IMG/VR virus record: IMGVR_UViG_3300036785_000516
Span: 1-42,055 of that record
DNA: 42,055 nt
Reading direction: 5' to 3' (one strand)
From: a virus
Numbering within the stretch: position 1 is the stretch's first letter; each line of letters starts with the position of its first letter. Shown here one piece after another: positions 1,260 to 27,860 of the stretch. The position numbers were made by a program, and so were the translations under genes. The notes below the pieces were generated by a model that did not search any database, was not told where the DNA came from, and saw only the letters and a list, made by a program, of their open reading frames with translations.

Positions 1260-1288
1260 TTGCAATAGGGCATAATGCCCTATATGTT
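1260..1288 (+). promoter_or_regulatory. promoter P1 of the amidoligase operon
   Basis: A -35-like TTGCAA (1260-1265) and a -10-like TATGTT (1283-1288) are separated by exactly 17 bp. The spacer is filled by the 19-bp palindrome at 1265-1283. This predicts sigma-70-type transcription of the rightward operon at 1348-3576, blocked when a dimeric regulator occupies the palindrome. Confidence 0.55.
1265..1283. promoter_or_regulatory. palindromic operator, copy 1
   Basis: ATAGGGCATAATGCCCTAT is a perfect 9+1+9 inverted repeat lying between the promoter hexamers of P1. An identical 19-mer occurs at 3580-3598 within the second promoter of the cassette. Position and identity point to a shared repressor. 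The small HTH proteins at 2379 and 4528 are local candidates. Confidence 0.75.
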
Positions 1289-1320
1289 AGTGTCTCGATC
1301 GAAGCAGATCGCTTCGCTTC

Positions 1321-1341
1321 AAGGGCAATCAAGCCCGGGAG
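1321..1341 (+). promoter_or_regulatory. leader hairpin touching the Shine-Dalgarno, copy 1
   Basis: AAGGGC, a short loop and GCCC form a small stem that runs directly into GGGAG, the ribosome-binding site of the GTG start at 1348. The same design occurs at 2834-2853 and 4086-4105, so it may tune translation of the cassette genes. Confidence 0.5.
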
Positions 1342-1347
1342 TTCACA

Positions 1348-2361
1348 GTGTCTCATCTCGACTATGGGTTCGGTGTCGAATTGGAATGCTACCTTCCGAT
1401 CGGCACGACACATGCACAAGCCGCAGCTGCCGTTGCGCGACGCATTAACGCGCGTTGCGAATTCGAGCAGTACGGGCATGCGCTGCGCGACTATTGGAAG
1501 GTCGTCACCGACGGCTCGCTCCAAGACTACTCGCGGGGCGCAGAATTCGTTAGCCCGATTTTGCGCGACCAAGCGGGTTTGTATCAGCTTGAACAAGTCT
1601 GCAGCGCGTTGACTGAGATCGGTTGCACCGTCAATGCTTCGTGCGGGTTGCACGTTCATGTCGGCGTCGGCAATCGCCCGCTGCAATTCTTCAAGTCGAT
1701 AACGAAGCTATACGGGATTTATGAGCCCGTTATCGATGCCATGATGCCGCGCAGCCGACGTCGCAGCGAGGGCTTTTTTTGCCGCTCGATTGCCTCTGTA
1801 AGCCCCGCAATGATCGATCGCCAGAGCACGTTTGACGCTCTCGTCCATCTAGTGACGCCGGGCCGAAACGAGCACCAACGTCGATACTACAAAATCAATC
1901 TTGAGGCCCATCGTCGGCATCGCACCGTCGAATTCCGCCAGCACAGCGGCACGCTAGACGCTAACAGAGCGCGCAAGTGGACCGAGTTGTGTCTGCGTAT
2001 GATCGACGCTGCAGCCCGTGGGATCAATCTCGGCGCGAGCAGCGAGGGTCAACGCAATAGCGCGAAGCCGGGTACGCAATCGCATTTAGTCGGCGAAATG
2101 TTGCTGCGCCCCGAAGGCGTGACACAAGCCGAAATTCAAGTCGTGACGGGCGGGCGCTCGCGCCACGTCCCGAGCCGCGCGCGCGCTTGCGGGATCGAAA
2201 TCTTCTCGCAGCGAACGGGTCGCTCGATCCGATACTTTGCCGTCGCAGCAACATCCGCGACTCTAGACGTCTCGATTGAAGGCTTTTGCAATCTGATCGG
2301 GGCGAGCACTGCCGAACGAATGCACATTGAAACCCGAACCGCGACTCTCCAAGCCGCGTAA
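1348..2361 (+). CDS. amidoligase_2 family ATP-dependent ligase with a C-terminal winged-helix-like region
   Basis: The 337-residue protein (GTG start, GGGAG upstream) has the ordered motifs of the COOH-NH2 ligase (amidoligase_2) family: GVELE at 9-13, VTDGSL at 53-58, GAEFVSP at 64-70, CGLHVHVG at 99-106 and TVEFRQHSGTLD at 193-204. The family resembles the glutamine synthetase/glutamate-cysteine ligase fold and is predicted to form amide bonds on peptides or small molecules. Residues 245-300 (LLRPEGVTQAEI onward) resemble a DUF3489-type winged helix, suggesting a DNA- or partner-binding module. It is the first gene of an operon that also encodes a gamma-glutamylcyclotransferase-like protein, a pairing already described for this family. 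The substrate is unknown. Confidence 0.85.
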   Translation: MSHLDYGFGVELECYLPIGTTHAQAAAAVARRINARCEFEQYGHALRDYWKVVTDGSLQDYSRGAEFVSPILRDQAGLYQLEQVCSALTEIGCTVNASCGLHVHVGVGNRPLQFFKSITKLYGIYEPVIDAMMPRSRRRSEGFFCRSIASVSPAMIDRQSTFDALVHLVTPGRNEHQRRYYKINLEAHRRHRTVEFRQHSGTLDANRARKWTELCLRMIDAAARGINLGASSEGQRNSAKPGTQSHLVGEMLLRPEGVTQAEIQVVTGGRSRHVPSRARACGIEIFSQRTGRSIRYFAVAATSATLDVSIEGFCNLIGASTAERMHIETRTATLQAA

Positions 2362-2378
2362 CCCCGAAAGGCACGAAC

Positions 2379-2597
2379 ATGACACAAGTTGACAAGAATA
2401 CGCTTAAGCAGTGGCGCGAAATGATGGGCTTCACCGAGCAAAACGCCATTGACGCTCTCGGCTGCACTGCAGCGCAGTGGCGCGCGTGGGAGGGCGGGAG
2501 CGAAAAAGTCCCGCTGTATATCGGGCTCGCAACGTCTGCGCTCGCTCTCGGCATTTCCCTCGACAACGGCCCCAACGGCGACAGCCAAGGAAAGTGA
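2379..2597 (+). CDS. small XRE-like helix-turn-helix protein
   Basis: This 72-residue product has the pattern LKQWREMMGFTEQNAIDALG, then CTAAQWRAWEGGSEKVP, typical of short XRE-type DNA-binding proteins of rhizobia and their phages. It lies 17 bp after the amidoligase, with GAAAGG upstream of the ATG. It probably regulates the cassette and is a candidate binder of the duplicated palindrome. The C-terminal 15 residues look disordered. Confidence 0.7.
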   Translation: MTQVDKNTLKQWREMMGFTEQNAIDALGCTAAQWRAWEGGSEKVPLYIGLATSALALGISLDNGPNGDSQGK

Positions 2598-2599
2598 AC

Positions 2600-2821
2600 A
2601 TGAACTTTCGAACCAAAGCCGACCGCGTCATCGACAGGGCGCACAACGCGATCGCTTGCGCTGAAATGCTCCTGCAGCATTCCTTTACGCCCGAGAGCCG
2701 ACAGCAAGCCCTCGATGAACTATTCGAAGCGCAAAAGTTTTTGCGCCGCGCGGTCGAGGCCAAGCGAGCTTGGAACGCGATCGAACATGACGATTACGAA
2801 GAATATCCCGACGTCATCTGA
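2600..2821 (+). CDS. small helical hypothetical protein
   Basis: A 73-residue, probably all-helical protein beginning MNFRTKADRVIDRAHNAIA and ending in an acidic tail (EHDDYEEYPDV). It starts 2 bp after the preceding stop, with AAGGAAAG as ribosome site, so it is translationally linked to the HTH gene. I do not recognise the family. Confidence 0.6.
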   Translation: MNFRTKADRVIDRAHNAIACAEMLLQHSFTPESRQQALDELFEAQKFLRRAVEAKRAWNAIEHDDYEEYPDVI

Positions 2822-2833
2822 CCATCCCCAACC

Positions 2834-2853
2834 AAGGGCGCGAAGCCCGGGAG
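2834..2853 (+). promoter_or_regulatory. leader hairpin touching the Shine-Dalgarno, copy 2
   Basis: AAGGGC-GCGAA-GCCC forms a stem running into GGGAG just before the ATG at 2855. It is almost the same as the element at 1321-1341, with a GCGA-type loop. Confidence 0.5.
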
Positions 2854-2854
2854 A

Positions 2855-3367
2855 ATGAAAGTGCTTTACTTTGCTTACGGATCGAACCTTAACCGCGACG
2901 CGATGGCGCGACGTTGCCCTGACGCGAAGCCGATTGGAGCCCTCAAGCTGACAGACGCTCGCCTCGTATTCCGGGGCGTTGCCGATTGCATCTACGAAGA
3001 GGGCGCCGAATGCCCGGGCGCGGTGTGGAAGCTAACGCCAGAATGTGAAGCCGCGCTCGATCGCTACGAGGGTGTGAGCGGCGGCTTCTATCGAAAAGAA
3101 TACGTGACTGTGACCGGGTTCGAGGGCGAGGACCAGATGCTCCTCTACGTCATGAACTCGACCGGCATTTTCCCGCCGTCAGAGGGCTACTACCAAACAA
3201 TTCGACAGGGTTATCGCGATTTCGAGCTGCCGCTCAAGTATCTGCGCGCTGCTGTCAAAGCATCGTGGGACGACAAGGCGCCGAGCCATCGCGAGCGCCA
3301 GCGTCATCGTCGCAACGGGCGCCCCGCGCTTGTTGCGATGCCGGTCGACAAACGGGTGAGCCGATGA
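2855..3367 (+). CDS. gamma-glutamylcyclotransferase-like (GGCT/AIG2) protein
   Basis: The 170-residue protein opens VLYFAYGSNLNRDAM, the YGSN signature of the GGCT/AIG2 fold. It continues with GAVWKLTPECEAALDRYEGV and a C-terminal EYVTVTGF strand region, all typical. Such enzymes release gamma-glutamyl groups as 5-oxoproline, or act on related isopeptides. Its place in one operon with an amidoligase suggests that the two make and trim, or protect against, a gamma-linked product. The last 25 residues are basic and probably disordered. The next gene overlaps by ATGA. Confidence 0.85.
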   Translation: MKVLYFAYGSNLNRDAMARRCPDAKPIGALKLTDARLVFRGVADCIYEEGAECPGAVWKLTPECEAALDRYEGVSGGFYRKEYVTVTGFEGEDQMLLYVMNSTGIFPPSEGYYQTIRQGYRDFELPLKYLRAAVKASWDDKAPSHRERQRHRRNGRPALVAMPVDKRVSR

Positions 3368-3576
3368 ACGCCGCAGATCGCAAGGCGCTCGCATTGCTCG
3401 CCGATTGTAGCAGCGGCGCCACCGGCCCAGCGCTCGAAGCGCGTGGCGTATCAGAAGCCACGCTCGATCGCCTGATCGCGCAAGGGCTCGTCATGTCGCG
3501 CCTTCGACATTTCGCCAATCCGCGGGGCCTCACAGTCATGCACTACTGGCTGATCCCGACAGGAGTTGTCCATTGA
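3364..3576 (+). CDS. small winged-helix-like hypothetical protein
   Basis: This 70-residue protein overlaps the GGCT-like gene by ATGA, implying translational coupling. Its pattern (ALLADCSSGATGPALEARGV, LDRLIAQGLV, then a beta-hairpin ending YWLIPTG) resembles a short winged helix. Its stop codon overlaps the -35 box of the next promoter. The function is unknown. Confidence 0.6.
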   Translation: MNAADRKALALLADCSSGATGPALEARGVSEATLDRLIAQGLVMSRLRHFANPRGLTVMHYWLIPTGVVH

Positions 3577-3601
3577 CGAATAGGGCATAATGCCCTATAA
3601 C
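3573..3601 (+). promoter_or_regulatory. promoter P2 inside the cassette
   Basis: TTGACG (3573-3578) and TATAAC (3596-3601) are separated by exactly 17 bp, a strong sigma-70-like arrangement. The palindrome at 3580-3598 fills the spacer and covers the start of the -10 box. It would drive the gene at 3683 and, by readthrough, the genes up to 5514. Confidence 0.7.
3580..3598. promoter_or_regulatory. palindromic operator, copy 2
   Basis: A second identical copy of ATAGGGCATAATGCCCTAT, again between promoter hexamers. Identity over 19 bp at two promoters 2.3 kb apart strongly suggests a common regulator. Confidence 0.75.
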
Positions 3602-3682
3602 AACGAATAGCGAAGGGATGTCCTTTCGCATGCCCGGAGCGCAGCCAACCGGTAAATGCTGCACAACAGAAGGAACTACAAG

Positions 3683-4021
3683 ATGACTAGCTTTGCTTTG
3701 ATCACCCTAAGCAAGATCGCGCCCGAGAGTCGATACGACTCCGAAGAGGGCGCGCCCGAGCGCAGCGAGCCGACGAATATCAACGTCTTCTCGATCCGCG
3801 CTTTCTACCCGCGCAAGGGCGGCAAGCCCGGCACCCGCATCACCTTCAACGATGGAGGCGGGTTCGCAGTCGCCGAGCCGACCGACTACGTGCGCGAGGC
3901 GACGATCGCCGTCGCCAAGGGCAAGGCGCAGCCCGCTGCGCCCCCGCCGCCCGTCGTCGCGCCCGTCGCGCCTCCCGCGCTCGCTCTCGTCGCTGACGCG
4001 AGCGAAAGCGAAGGCGAGTAA
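3683..4021 (+). CDS. hypothetical protein with Pro/Ala-rich tail
   Basis: The 112-residue product has a beta-rich N-terminal half (TSFALITLSKIAP, NVFSIRAFYPRKGGKPGTRITF). A Pro/Ala linker (AAPPPPVVAPVAPPALAL) leads to an acidic end (ASESEGE). Acidic, flexible tails are common on phage nucleic-acid-binding proteins, but no family is recognised. The start at 3683 has GAAGGA upstream. P2 gives it an approximately 75-nt leader with a GCGAAGGG/CCTTTCGC hairpin, and a strong terminator follows it, so it may be the most highly expressed gene of the cassette. Confidence 0.65.
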   Translation: MTSFALITLSKIAPESRYDSEEGAPERSEPTNINVFSIRAFYPRKGGKPGTRITFNDGGGFAVAEPTDYVREATIAVAKGKAQPAAPPPPVVAPVAPPALALVADASESEGE

Positions 4022-4042
4022 CGCGCGAACTGCAAACCATTC

Positions 4043-4071
4043 CCCGGGTCCGCGCGAGCGGCCCGGGTTTT
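4043..4071 (+). terminator. intrinsic terminator with GCGA tetraloop
   Basis: CCCGGG-T-CCGC, loop GCGA, GCGG-CCCGGG, then TTTT. The stem is 10 bp with one bulged T. It lies 22 bp after the stop at 4021 and would limit P2 readthrough to the following genes. Confidence 0.8.
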
Positions 4072-4085
4072 CCCTTCAACATTCC

Positions 4086-4105
4086 AAGGGGCATGACCCC
4101 GGGAG
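4086..4105 (+). promoter_or_regulatory. leader hairpin touching the Shine-Dalgarno, copy 3
   Basis: AAGGGGCATGACCCCGGGAG: a GGGG/CCCC stem with loop CATGA runs into GGGAG before the ATG at 4113. This is the third copy of the leader design. Confidence 0.5.
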
Positions 4106-4112
4106 ATTCGAA

Positions 4113-4298
4113 ATGACTATCACTGTAAAATTTAAGCTTGAGAAGACGACCAAAGGCGCAGTCCGCTATCAAGAGATCGACGACAACGGCGCCCCCGCCG
4201 AGGCGTGGGCGAAAATCGGCACGCTCTACGTCCGCAAGACCGCTTTCGAGCGCGACAGCATCCCGCAGACGCTAACCGTCAGCGTGACGACAAACTAA
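4113..4298 (+). CDS. small conserved hypothetical protein
   Basis: A 61-residue, probably beta-rich protein (TITVKFKLEKTTKGAVRYQE, then IGTLYVRKTAF). Proteins of this pattern are widespread and unassigned in alphaproteobacteria and their mobile elements. It is flanked by a terminator upstream and a tetraloop hairpin downstream, so its mRNA may be processed or separately stabilised. Confidence 0.65.
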   Translation: MTITVKFKLEKTTKGAVRYQEIDDNGAPAEAWAKIGTLYVRKTAFERDSIPQTLTVSVTTN

Positions 4299-4309
4299 AC
4301 CCGCACAAC

Positions 4310-4331
4310 GCGCGGCCCTTCGGGGCCGCGC
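4310..4331 (+). terminator. 9-bp hairpin with TTCG tetraloop
   Basis: GCGCGGCCC-TTCG-GGGCCGCGC is a perfect 9-bp stem with the very stable UUCG loop, 11 bp after the stop at 4298. No T-run follows, so it is more likely an mRNA 3' stabiliser or pause hairpin than a full terminator. Confidence 0.5.
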
Positions 4332-4348
4332 CCACGGAGTAACTGCAA

Positions 4349-4531
4349 ATGGAAAGTATGGCAATCGAGCAGTTGTTGCTCGCCTTCGCAAAGGGCGAGT
4401 TGAACGGCGGCAAGATCGAATGGGACGATATCGAGATCGCTTTTGACTACGCCCGCGAGGCGATGCCCGGCCGCTATCTTGAGATCATTCGTGAGCTGGG
4501 CGAAGCCCATGAAGAGGCAGAGGCAGAATGA
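4349..4531 (+). CDS. small acidic hypothetical protein
   Basis: A 60-residue acidic helical protein (LLLAFAKGELNGGKIEWDDIE, ending EEAEAE). It starts after GGAGT, and its last codons overlap the next gene by ATGA. No recognised family. Confidence 0.55.
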   Translation: MESMAIEQLLLAFAKGELNGGKIEWDDIEIAFDYAREAMPGRYLEIIRELGEAHEEAEAE

Positions 4532-4749
4532 ACCACAACGAATATCGCGACGCGCTCGCGGCGCTCGACCTGACGCAAGGCGCTGCAGCCCGTTTCTTCC
4601 AAGTCGACGAGCGAACGTCGCGGCGTTGGGCGACGGGCGAGATACCCGTACCGCACGCCGTCGCGCTGTTATTTCGCGTCATGATCGAGGAAGACATCAG
4701 CCCTGCGCGCGTCTACGAACTCGCCGGCTTAGAGGAATTCGAACCATGA
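4528..4749 (+). CDS. small helix-turn-helix protein
   Basis: The 73-residue sequence LDLTQGAAARFFQVDERTSRRWATGEIPVPHAVALL is a clear helix-turn-helix. The DERTSRRWA recognition helix is common in small proteins of rhizobial phages. It overlaps both neighbours by ATGA, so the three genes are coupled. It is a second candidate for the regulator of the palindromic promoters. Confidence 0.75.
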   Translation: MNHNEYRDALAALDLTQGAAARFFQVDERTSRRWATGEIPVPHAVALLFRVMIEEDISPARVYELAGLEEFEP

Positions 4750-5120
4750 AGATCATCGCTATACGTCAGCCGTGGGCGCATCTGATCGTGACGGGCATCA
4801 AGCCCGTCGAGAACCGATCGTGGCGCGTCAACTATCGCGGCCCGCTCGCGATCCTCGCAAGCAAGCAGCCCGCCAAGCAATCCGTCGAGGAGATCGAGCG
4901 CCGCTACCGCGTCAGCATCCCGCGCGATCTTCCCCGGGGCGGCATCGTCGGGCTCGTCGACCTCGTCGACATCGTCGACTCGCATCCGAGCCGGTTCTTT
5001 TCGGGACCGTTCGGGTTCGTGCTCGAAAACGCGCGCCCTCTCCCGTTCATCCCGATGCTCGGGCAGCTGAACATCTGGGACGCGCCATTTCGCGTCGTCA
5101 AGAAACTACTCGCTGCATAA
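4746..5120 (+). CDS. ASCH-domain protein
   Basis: This 124-residue protein begins KIIAIRQPWAHLIVTGIKPVENRSW, then YRGPLAILASKQ, the typical opening of ASCH domains (PUA-like fold, RNA- or modified-base-binding). It ends GQLNIWDAPF. Some ASCH proteins hydrolyse acylated cytidines or nucleosides; others are thought to bind RNA. It overlaps the HTH gene by ATGA. Confidence 0.8.
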   Translation: MKIIAIRQPWAHLIVTGIKPVENRSWRVNYRGPLAILASKQPAKQSVEEIERRYRVSIPRDLPRGGIVGLVDLVDIVDSHPSRFFSGPFGFVLENARPLPFIPMLGQLNIWDAPFRVVKKLLAA

Positions 5121-5145
5121 CCCCAAACCCCGAAAGGAAAATCAG

Positions 5146-5514
5146 ATGACTATCAAGAAACTTGCACTTGCACTTGCGATCACGGTTGCCCCGCTATGCG
5201 CGGCAAACGCCGCCGACACACAACAGGATGTGGCATCCTTGAGAGTTATGACGAAATTCTACATCTACGTGCAAACGTGCAACGTCGATCCAAGCATCCT
5301 CGACGAAGCCACATGGGACTTGATGATTGCTTATGGAAAGCAAGACCCGGAGGAAAGTAAAAAAATCGGCGCGGAAGAAGCAGCGAAGGCTCAACAGAAC
5401 ATCGCTGCGATCGGGCCGGAAAAATTCTGCGCATTCTACGGAGCGCTGACGCAGGACACTGTAACGCTTCTCCACAAGTTGAAGCCGCTTCCCGCAGCAC
5501 CGGCGAAGCCCTAG
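5146..5514 (+). CDS. periplasmic hypothetical protein
   Basis: A 122-residue protein with a signal peptide (TIKKLALALAITVAPLCAANA), a helical body holding two cysteines (QTCNVDP and EKFCAFYG) that could form a disulphide, and a Pro/Ala-rich tail. GAAAGGA precedes the ATG. It is the last gene of the cassette and points toward the convergent gene ending at 5528. It may act in the periplasm, for example in envelope protection, but no family is recognised. Confidence 0.65.
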   Translation: MTIKKLALALAITVAPLCAANAADTQQDVASLRVMTKFYIYVQTCNVDPSILDEATWDLMIAYGKQDPEESKKIGAEEAAKAQQNIAAIGPEKFCAFYGALTQDTVTLLHKLKPLPAAPAKP

Positions 5515-5527
5515 ATATCGCCCGCCC

Positions 5528-5926
5528 CTAAACCAGCGTCAAGAAATCCTCCAGCGTGTCGACGAGCAATAGGTTCCCGAATTGCTCGCGGCACATGCCG
5601 GCGCCACTGTAGACGATGGTCCGGACGTTCACCTGCTGCAGCGTGGCGGCGATGCTGGCGGGATTGCTGATCGAGAACCACCCGGCCAGCGCGATCAGGT
5701 CGACGAGCCCGTTCCGATCGAGCGCCCGCACCCAATCGCAGAACCGCGCCTCGAAGCCTCGACACTGATCAAGGTCGACGGCGTATCGAAAGCGCTCGCT
5801 GACATCCATCACCGCCATCATGACGCCGGCGCCCGACCCGATCAGCAAGCCCCGGCTGACCCGGCGATAGTCGACCACCGGCACCTCAAACAAAGCACTG
5901 CAGAAATTCAAACCCGGATGGCCCAT
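5528..5926 (-). CDS. hypothetical protein
   Basis: A 132-residue protein overlapping the end of the ABC-GNAT gene by 19 bp, so in the same operon. It contains a glycine-rich segment (GLLIGSGAGVMMAVMDV) followed by a helical RFRYAVDLDQCRGFEARFCDWV region and a possible Rossmann-like half (NVRTIVYSGAGMCREQFGN). No family is recognised. Confidence 0.6.
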   Translation of the reverse strand: MGHPGLNFCSALFEVPVVDYRRVSRGLLIGSGAGVMMAVMDVSERFRYAVDLDQCRGFEARFCDWVRALDRNGLVDLIALAGWFSISNPASIAATLQQVNVRTIVYSGAGMCREQFGNLLLVDTLEDFLTLV

Positions 5927-8238: not shown

Positions 8239-8778
8239 TTATCCGACGGGCGTCCATCGAATGTTTGTTTGCTCCCGCGTGAACTGTCCTCGCCGCGGGT
8301 GTTTGTTTGCTCCCAAATCCCGATGTTTGTTTGCTCCCGTCCAGTCATCTGGCCTTCGTTCGCTTCCGTTGTATCGGTTGTTTGTTTGCTCCCGACCGAT
8401 GCGGCTGTTTGTTTGCTCCCGGCCAACGCGGTTGTTTGTTTGCTCCCTGCCGGCATTATTGCCGCCATTCGCGGGGTGGCGCGGATCGAGCGGCCATCCA
8501 TCGGCGCCGATCTCGGAGGTGTAGCCATGCAGGTCGAAGTGATGTTTCATTCTTACGTGGCAGTCATTGCACAATGACTGCAATGTCCCGAGACGGAAGG
8601 CGTTCCAGTTGCCTCGGTGTGGGACGACATGGTCGGCGATAACGGCCGGTGTGGCCACGCCGCGGTCGATGCAGAAGGCACACAGGGGTTCCTGCTGCAG
8701 GTGCAGGCGGCGGCGTCTGCGCCAGATATTGAGCTGATACCATTGCCGCCAAGGACGGTCGGTTGGTGCGATGGCCAT
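8239..8778 (-). CDS. HNH endonuclease with repeat-rich C-terminus
   Basis: The 179-residue protein has a zinc-dependent HNH nuclease in its first 90 residues: CAFC, then ADHVVPHRGNWNAFRLGTLQ, then LCNDCHVRMKHH. Such enzymes commonly sit beside terminase genes in HK97-type phages and take part in packaging. The last 75 residues are low-complexity, with four REQTN and two GANKH units encoded by six copies of one 15-bp DNA element. The nuclease part is secure. The repeat tail may be translated but is probably dispensable. Confidence 0.85.
   Translation of the reverse strand: MAIAPTDRPWRQWYQLNIWRRRRRLHLQQEPLCAFCIDRGVATPAVIADHVVPHRGNWNAFRLGTLQSLCNDCHVRMKHHFDLHGYTSEIGADGWPLDPRHPANGGNNAGREQTNNRVGREQTNSRIGREQTNNRYNGSERRPDDWTGANKHRDLGANKHPRRGQFTREQTNIRWTPVG
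8262..8447. repeat. six copies of a 15-bp element inside the HNH gene
   Basis: TGTTTGTTTGCTCCC occurs exactly at 8262, 8300, 8324, 8379, 8406 and 8433. Spacings are 38, 24, 55, 27 and 27 bp. Copies 1, 4, 5 and 6 are in one reading frame (REQTN) and copies 2 and 3 in another (GANKH), so the DNA rather than the peptide is conserved. Confidence 0.9.
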
Positions 8779-26314: not shown

Positions 26315-26643
26315 GACGTCTTGTCTTTGCGCGCGATGGCCGCCGGATCGAAGGTGCCGCATGGCGTCATTTCCCGGAACGCCTCACGGGCTATTTCCCC
26401 AAACGTCTTTGCGGTGACGCCACGCTCCGCAAACTTCTCTTTTCGAAACAATGCGATTCTGGCGGCGTGTTGCAACAGCGCCATTTCCAGAGCGAGAAAC
26501 ATTGCTGCCGCCGATCCTGATTCGCCGTGAGTGGCTTTCATCGATCCCAGCCACCCGTCTATTGCTCCGTCAAGAGCTGCGTACGCTCGACCGCCAGCTT
26601 CGAGATAATTATCGACTTCGGTCATCCTTTGGCGCTCCCTCAT
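26311..26643 (-). CDS. hypothetical protein in the integrase operon
   Basis: A 110-residue helical protein (AALDGAIDGWLGSMKATHGE, LQHAARIALFRKEKFAERGV). ATG 26643 overlaps the integrase stop (ATGA); an internal ATG at 26625 is the alternative start. No recognised family. Confidence 0.6.
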   Translation of the reverse strand: MRERQRMTEVDNYLEAGGRAYAALDGAIDGWLGSMKATHGESGSAAAMFLALEMALLQHAARIALFRKEKFAERGVTAKTFGEIAREAFREMTPCGTFDPAAIARKDKTS

Positions 26644-27860
26644 TGTGCGGCTTGGCGTTTGAACGGGACGATGGCGGCCGGCGAGAGATCGACCATGGCG
26701 GCGCGGACCAGATCGTCAGTGACATCGGTGATGTGGCGCCCGTAGTGCGCACGAATTTGCGCCTCGCTGGTATCATGCAGCGATGCGACAAGGCTCACCG
26801 GCAGGCCTGCCAGCAAGCCGCGCACGATGCTTGAGTGCCGCAGCGCGTAGCTCGTGATTGACGGATCGAGCCCAGCGGCGACGACCGCCTTGCAGAATGG
26901 GTCTTCGATATTGTCGAAGCTCCAAGGCCGCCCGGTTGGCGACAGCAGCAGCAAGTCGTCATCGGCGCGGCCGGCGGCGACCTCCTGCAGCAGCGCGGCG
27001 AGGCTGCCCGGGATCTGCAGCGCCTTGGCCGGGGCCTTCCTCGCCGCCGCCCTGCGCCCGCCCTTGCGCGAGGGTGACATGAGCAATCGCCCCTTCGCGG
27101 CCTGCAGGTCGCTGACGCGCAGCCGAGCCACCTGACTGATGCGCGCGCCCGTCGCCGCCAAGACCTCGACCAGCAGCCCGAAACAGGCGCCGATGGCGCG
27201 GGCCTCGACGATGATGGCGCGGACGTCGCGATCGGGCAGCGTTAGCCGCCGCGCGGTGTTGCCTTCGGGCAGGCTCTCAAGCCCGAGCTTCCATGCCATT
27301 GCGTTGGTGATGCGCGAGTCGCATTTCGCCGCGGCGTTGAGCGCCGCTCGCAGCCCCTTCATGGTGCGGTTTGGGTTGCCGCCCTTGTCGACGATGCCAT
27401 CGCGGAACGCCCGCAGATCCTGCGCCGTCAGCAACGCCACGCATTTCCCGGCGAGCACCGGCGACAGATGGGCGCGGACGCGCTTGGCGTTCGCCGGATC
27501 GGCCCCGGCGCTTTTCAGGTCCGCCTCGTACCGGGTGAGCGCTTGGTCGACCGTGACGGGCGCGCCCTGGCCGCCCGGGGTCTGCCCGCGCGCGATCTCC
27601 TTGGCGCGGTCCTGGGCCTGCCAGAAGTTGAGGATGGTCTGCCCGTCGGCCTTGTCGTGATCGTCGGCCTCGGCGAACTTCCTGATCCATTCCTTGCCGT
27701 GGCCGTCGGTGGCCTCGACCGACCAAGTGCCGCCGGTCGCGTTGCGGCGATAGCCGAGCTTGATGCCGCGCGCGATGCGCAGCCAGAAGGGTTTCGTCTG
27801 CACCGGTAGCGTCAGCCGGGCGCTGGGGGATTCGAATTTGGTCGCTCTGATCTTTGGCAT
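26640..27860 (-). CDS. tyrosine-type phage integrase
   Basis: A 406-residue recombinase. The catalytic core has Arg240 (LAATGARISQVARL), Arg341 in YALRHSS, His362 in LHDTSEAQ and nucleophile Tyr373 in IRAHYGRHI. The first His of the HxxR box is replaced by Tyr338, a variation seen in some family members. The N-terminal 180 residues hold the arm- and core-binding domains. It integrates and excises phage DNA with help from an excisionase, for which the protein at 28337 is a candidate. No attachment site could be identified. Confidence 0.9.
   Translation of the reverse strand: MPKIRATKFESPSARLTLPVQTKPFWLRIARGIKLGYRRNATGGTWSVEATDGHGKEWIRKFAEADDHDKADGQTILNFWQAQDRAKEIARGQTPGGQGAPVTVDQALTRYEADLKSAGADPANAKRVRAHLSPVLAGKCVALLTAQDLRAFRDGIVDKGGNPNRTMKGLRAALNAAAKCDSRITNAMAWKLGLESLPEGNTARRLTLPDRDVRAIIVEARAIGACFGLLVEVLAATGARISQVARLRVSDLQAAKGRLLMSPSRKGGRRAAARKAPAKALQIPGSLAALLQEVAAGRADDDLLLLSPTGRPWSFDNIEDPFCKAVVAAGLDPSITSYALRHSSIVRGLLAGLPVSLVASLHDTSEAQIRAHYGRHITDVTDDLVRAAMVDLSPAAIVPFKRQAAQ

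Follow-up and report, generated by a model that had tools for sequence, protein, structure and literature searches.

The window, by which we mean the whole 42,055-base IMG/VR virus record IMGVR_UViG_3300036785_000516, contains an amidoligase cassette of eleven plus-strand genes (1348–5514) opposed to its minus-strand phage neighbours. As well as an amidoligase and a gamma-glutamylcyclotransferase-like (GGCT) protein, the cassette encodes two small helix-turn-helix (HTH) proteins, an ASCH-domain protein and several small proteins, and it has two promoter-embedded palindromes of the type recognized by the plasmid repressor KorC (O_C) and three hairpins beside Shine–Dalgarno (SD) sequences. A preliminary description of this DNA had the gene content right, but the amidoligase is accompanied by ten small plus-strand genes, not nine. 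The features are listed below; loci fetched for comparison carry L-numbers.

1260–1288, plus strand: promoter 1, with -35-like TTGCAA (1260–1265), a 17-nt spacer (1266–1282) and -10-like TATGTT (1283–1288)
1265–1283, no strand assigned: operator 1, ATAGGGCATAATGCCCTAT, with a 17-bp core that matches the site before pBS228 klcA at every base
1323–1341, plus strand: hairpin GGGC-AATCAA-GCCC, abutting the SD GGGAG of gene A
1348–2361, plus strand: A, amidoligase (PF12224), GTG start, glutamine-synthetase fold
2379–2597, plus strand: B (HTH1), small XRE-like protein, a companion of the amidoligase
2600–2821, plus strand: C, 73-aa protein with no detectable homologue
2836–2853, plus strand: hairpin GGGC-GCGAA-GCCC, abutting the SD GGGAG of gene D
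2855–3367, plus strand: D, GGCT protein, catalytic Glu conserved
3364–3576, plus strand: E, 70-aa protein restricted to close relatives
3573–3601, plus strand: promoter 2, with TTGACG (3573–3578), a 17-nt spacer and TATAAC (3596–3601); holds operator 2
3580–3598, no strand assigned: operator 2, an identical O_C-type palindrome
3683–4021, plus strand: F, small, weakly FlbD-like protein, third recurrent partner of the amidoligase and GGCT
4088–4105, plus strand: hairpin GGGG-CATGA-CCCC, abutting the SD GGGAG of gene G
4113–4298, plus strand: G, 61-aa protein
4349–4531, plus strand: H, 60-aa protein
4528–4749, plus strand: I (HTH2), KorC-like/Aca-like HTH protein, proposed repressor of both operators and of itself
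4746–5120, plus strand: J, ASCH-domain protein, with stop/start overlap with HTH2, in the window and several relatives
5146–5514, plus strand: K, putative secreted protein with a signal peptide by eye, not conserved in relatives

The window carries terS, ParB, ABC-type ATPase, HNH, primase/helicase, RecE/RecT, baseplate and tail-fibre genes and, at 26640–27860, an integrase; this gene set suggests that it is a fragment of a probably temperate tailed phage. The cassette is bounded by the minus-strand terS (639–1130) and the minus-strand gene L_132 (5528–5926), and its minus-strand neighbours include ParB, the ABC-type ATPase and HNH. The neighbouring ATPase is common to 15 loci, and in one of these comparisons (L082) it is followed directly by terS, giving an empty site. 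The block, described earlier as inserted against the direction of the surrounding genes, is thus, on this comparison of gene orders, an insertion, probably acquired horizontally. Among relatives, L090 and L092 keep most of the set in order, and L093 has it rearranged. Since only the HTH2–ASCH pair is kept, amid other small genes, in L079, L081/L084 and L087, this pair is the more stable part of the island and the amidoligase–GGCT genes are its cargo.

Profile searches bore out the amidoligase (Amidoligase_2, E 8.5e-36), GGCT (GGACT/AIG2, E 8e-9 and 2e-9) and ASCH assignments (PF04266, 27.2 bits against a curated cut-off of 21.2; phrog_3193, E 1e-44), and weaker matches supported both HTH proteins. 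The secreted protein reported previously has a typical signal peptide by eye, but it is not conserved with the cassette, and no homologue of gene K was found among the fetched loci. A PADLOC search returned no defence match, and no acr gene was named by Pfam, PHROGs, NCBIfam or PADLOC, no dedicated acr library having been searched. Gene F is also present in L095, L096, L097, L099 and L100; its FlbD-like matches are weak (E 0.05–0.2).

Both enzymes look competent. Degenerate catalytic residues were looked for, and those of the amidoligase and GGCT proved to be conserved: in the amidoligase, 16 residues are invariant in 26 aligned sequences, the window's included. The AlphaFold2 model of this protein (mean predicted local distance difference test, pLDDT, 89) matches YbdK/gamma-glutamyl ligases and glutamine synthetases (Z 13.7, 235 residues, root-mean-square deviation 4.2), and its Foldseek matches include the depupylase Dop and the Pup ligase PafA. 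A profile search of the PDB with the amidoligase found no sequence relative, so its relation to glutamine synthetase rests on fold. We read the protein as an ATP-dependent ligase of this fold, likely to form a gamma-glutamyl-type amide. Protein D matches human gamma-glutamyl cyclotransferase (E 6e-11) and has the YGSN motif; its Glu aligns with a position that differs in chains 3cry and 2rbh, which we take to be E98 mutants of the human enzyme. This cyclotransferase is likely to cleave gamma-glutamyl-type bonds. The two genes are co-inherited: of the 33 records that have the amidoligase, 15 also have GGCT, in most cases immediately downstream, and F is present in 11.

The palindrome ATAGGGCATAATGCCCTAT occurs in the window in exactly two copies, against 0.00 expected, and each fills or nearly fills a promoter spacer. 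In promoter 1 the spacer is the palindrome itself, a layout repeated in L090, L092, L089 and L091. A literature look-up of the palindrome string gave no match; its identity came through the RadC-linked HTH protein of L009, which matched KorC in plasmids. The IncP-1alpha plasmid pBS228 carries exactly TAGGGCATAATGCCCTA, the core of the window operator, before its klcA antirestriction gene, and the IncP-1beta-like pALTS31 (klcA-klcB-korC-kleA) carries TAGGACATTTTGTCCTA twice; we presume the alpha and beta labels, the database typing being IncP. The symmetric IncP-1beta operator variant is TAGGACAT..TGTCCTA, and a KPC plasmid typed as IncU has TAGGCCAT..TGGCCTA. Across phages and plasmids, the changed base of a variant operator is mirrored in both arms. 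The promoter of phage L093 has GGACATAATGTCC, the same symmetric change as in pALTS31, and a search of viral contigs for this variant found three operator–RadC loci, two with a KorC-type HTH gene in view.

Because TAGGGCATNATGCCCTA was present in 37 stretches of viral contigs and a scrambled palindrome in 26, the operator count alone means little. Operator context did differ: a perfect TTGACA lay within 12 nt of 13 of 42 operator sites and of none of 26 control sites. A genome scan for TTGAC plus the operator found only four contigs, three with ArdB/KlcA antirestriction genes and one a prophage-like locus in which a small gene and an HTH gene lie near packaging genes. Other promoter-embedded palindromes were sought in L079, L081, L083, L087 and L002, where no clear operator was seen.

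Two further sets of O_C-type sites deserve mention. One 17-kb contig, IMGVR_UViG_3300023063_000005 (L012 and L026), has six such operators, mostly with a near-identical promoter and hairpin leader before different small genes, and is likely to be a rich anti-defence or establishment array; no match to the L012 repeat elements was found in plasmids. In a group of related contigs (L010, L011, L016, L018, L023, L025, L032, L034 and L037), the palindrome lies inside a longer inverted repeat (cctaggcTAGGGCATTATGCCCTAgcc) with no KorC-type HTH gene nearby, and may belong to a different element.

An HTH2 profile, with a seed limited to seven packaging-region phages, picked up 17 additional operator loci but no control locus out of 26, and a three-sequence seed gave nearly the same result. 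When loci were grouped by DNA similarity, an HTH2-type gene lay within 4 kb in 10 of the 19 groups with operators and in none of the 7 control groups; at E < 1e-3 the figures were 7 of 18 groups and 0 of 33 background units, the units being our own choice and not fully independent. HTH2 aligns to KorC with 33% identity over 51 aa (E 1e-7) in the central HTH only, and we therefore call it KorC-like, not KorC. The best PDB matches of the HTH2 profile were Aca2, Aca3 and Aca10 (E 2e-6 to 5e-4; Aca2 2e-6), and a structure search with its model (pLDDT 94) placed Aca2 first, with HigA2, MqsA and Aca10 also among the closest. Together, these sequences strongly suggest that the cassette is under a KorC-type switch, and we infer with moderate confidence that HTH2, encoded in the operon behind operator 2, represses both operons and itself.

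The three SD-linked leader hairpins of the preliminary description are real, conserved and, within the 42 kb, unique to the cassette leaders. The leaders of A, D and G follow a common CAAGGGS-loop-SCCCGGGAG pattern with one C-G to G-C swap and loops that vary in sequence and length; the stems were compared by hand, as MAFFT aligned them poorly. No further GGGS-loop-SCCC-SD-start element was found in the 42 kb or in 26 unrelated loci (234 kb). A different gene follows the G-type leader in L092, so leaders are retained as the genes behind them are swapped. Further GGGC/GCCC hairpins occur a short distance after the operators of the IncP plasmids, of contigs from Rhizobium, Aeromonas and Methylobacter, and of L046, L039 and L012, and a GGGC/GCCC or GGGG/CCCC hairpin was found within 80 nt of 16 of 51 operator sites and of none of 26 controls. 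The hairpins beside the three ribosome-binding sites probably add translational control. As operator and hairpin have a common GGGC/GCCC core, one protein might read both, and Aca2 is reportedly a precedent for dual DNA/RNA control (Birkholz et al., Nature 2024). We nevertheless consider it rather unlikely that a single KorC/Aca-type protein binds both the DNA operator TAGGGC-N5-GCCCTA and RNA hairpins GGGC-loop-GCCC as a dual switch in plasmids and phages.

Elsewhere, the operator precedes ArdB/KlcA (L043, L044 and L045), RadC (L004, L009, L027, L126 and L127), ArdC (L013) and DUF932 (L039); RadC was confirmed by Pfam in L009 and the other cargo was called by sequence resemblance. An HTH2-type gene often adjoins these loci, and none adjoins the control loci. 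KorA and KorC repress klcA in RP4; the gene is nearly off at steady state, and its expression rises about 120-fold when the plasmid enters a new cell (PMC7314908). Our data are most consistent with a model, to which we assign a probability of roughly 0.6, in which the cassette is a self-repressing establishment island under a KorC/Aca-type switch, expressed in a burst on entry and then quiet. On entry into a repressor-free cell, both operons would be expressed; HTH2 would then accumulate and shut both, leaving the prophage nearly silent. The cargo would comprise the amidoligase, the cyclotransferase, the F protein, the ASCH protein and swappable small genes. Because the same switch controls ArdB/KlcA, ArdC and RadC elsewhere, this cargo would, by analogy, most probably help the incoming genome against host defences, a part of the model that we hold more weakly than the switch itself. 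The match to KorC/O_C and the induction of klcA on entry predict early, transient expression, and the action during lysogeny proposed in the preliminary description is not supported, the operator and repressor type being one whose plasmid counterpart leaves klcA nearly silent at steady state.

Several observations weigh against the establishment model. The palindromes proposed to form paired promoters are real and conserved, but a strict sigma-70 consensus scan calls neither promoter, and promoter 1 matches that consensus at only 8 of 12 positions. Flanks of operator sites are richer in GC than those of controls (0.47 versus 0.40), which favours chance GC hairpins, and p-values for the operator comparisons are optimistic because the loci are partly related. 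HTH2 is without the N-terminal extension and conserved C-terminal tail of KorC, the cassette holds a second HTH gene (HTH1) that could be a regulator, and in L010 and its relatives and in several singletons the operator has no KorC-type gene nearby. The cassette also contains no gene itself known as antirestriction.

If the cassette instead served lysogenic conversion, the amidoligase and GGCT would modify a wall, peptide or surface component during prophage residence, for example to keep out other phages. The glutamine synthetase/YbdK-type fold and the apparently secreted K are in keeping with this, as is the cell-wall or superinfection-exclusion proposal for phage amidoligases cited in PMC10580990 and PMC11318856; KorC-type autorepression, however, predicts very low steady-state expression, and K is not conserved with the cassette, so that we consider this role unlikely. 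A metabolic role, in which the enzymes redirect host glutamate, nitrogen or glutathione-like metabolism in infection, seems less probable still. It draws on Phage-ZRK32, which encodes an amidoligase, GGCT, glutamine amidotransferase and glutathione synthase and for which a role in nitrogen metabolism was proposed (PMC10945688), but neither of the latter two enzymes was seen in the cassette, where the co-cargo is small genes and ASCH, and the operator's relatives control antirestriction genes, not metabolism.

It is similarly improbable that the palindromes answer mainly to HTH1, or to a host or plasmid KorC, and not to HTH2. HTH1 lies in the first operon, resembles HTH2 and has a profile that weakly reaches some operator loci (E 1e-3), and KorC supplied by an IncP-1 plasmid in the same cell would encounter an operator core identical to that of its own plasmid. 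Yet HTH1 also accompanies the amidoligase in L002, L094 and L095, in which no O_C operator was seen; it does not align to KorC, and its profile does not match KorC, whereas that of HTH2 does. ArdK was dropped as a candidate regulator, as known ArdK sites are direct repeats at the -35 box and the cassette operator is an inverted repeat in the spacer.

The closest known system is KorC/O_C of IncP-1 plasmids (klcA-klcB-korC and kle operons), whose operator core (in IncP-1alpha) is identical and likewise lies in the promoter region, whose small HTH repressor is homologous and is encoded among the genes under control, and whose operators are followed by GGGC-loop-GCCC leader hairpins. The cassette differs in lying in a temperate phage, in its cargo (amidoligase, GGCT, F and ASCH, not klcA or kle), in an HTH2 without the KorC terminal extensions, in showing no KorA site and in having hairpins also before internal genes. 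The Aca autorepressors (Aca2, Aca3 and Aca10) are likewise small HTH proteins encoded with the genes they control and acting at a palindrome in the core promoter; the Aca10 promoter is TTGCAA-N16-TATTCT with a 21-bp repeat inside (PMC9410881). Their operator sequence is different, no known acr gene was identified in the cassette, and HTH2 is a single domain of 73 aa without the Aca2 C-terminal domain. ArdK/CUP of IncN and IncW plasmids also involves a plasmid repressor limiting antirestriction and establishment genes, but ArdK is of the KorA family and acts at direct repeats at the -35 box (PMC9723621), whereas the cassette has a palindrome and a KorC-type HTH protein.

Phage pairs of amidoligase and AIG2/GGCT, from the families of Iyer et al. 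2009, are already known: they are adjacent in Arthrobacter cluster AL phages (PMC5513430), neighbouring in a Clostridium clostridioforme prophage (PMC11318856) and present in one region of UFV-P2 (PMC3890496). To these the cassette adds F, HTH1, HTH2–ASCH and O_C-type control, and an amidoligase–GGCT pair under a plasmid-type switch appears to be new. If the establishment model is correct, an IncP-1 circuit studied for decades also runs phage islands, and O_C sites offer a way to discover establishment or anti-defence genes in plasmids as well as in phages and prophages. Phage amidoligase–GGCT pairs would gain a testable time of action, and phages entering a cell that already carries an IncP-1 plasmid would be predicted to engage in cross-talk with it. 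Whether KorC-type proteins exert dual DNA/RNA control can be tested directly on the hairpins.

Outside the cassette, near-identical direct repeats (CCCTAAGCCAYTGATCGGGYAGG) lie at 1161–1183 and 1215–1237, between terS and promoter 1; a run of T follows each, and they are possibly control or packaging sites upstream of terS. Adjoining terS on the minus strand (62–688) is a PEP-CTERM/VPLPA-CTERM-like sorting-signal protein, an unusual class in phage, which is conserved beside terS in L075 and after a large open reading frame (ORF) in L007. The minus-strand HNH protein at 8239–8778 has a C-terminal tail of repeated REQTN units. Lastly, a terminase large-subunit-like ORF in L007 (7590–10613) has an apparent intein at the Walker A region, class 3 intein-like by eye.

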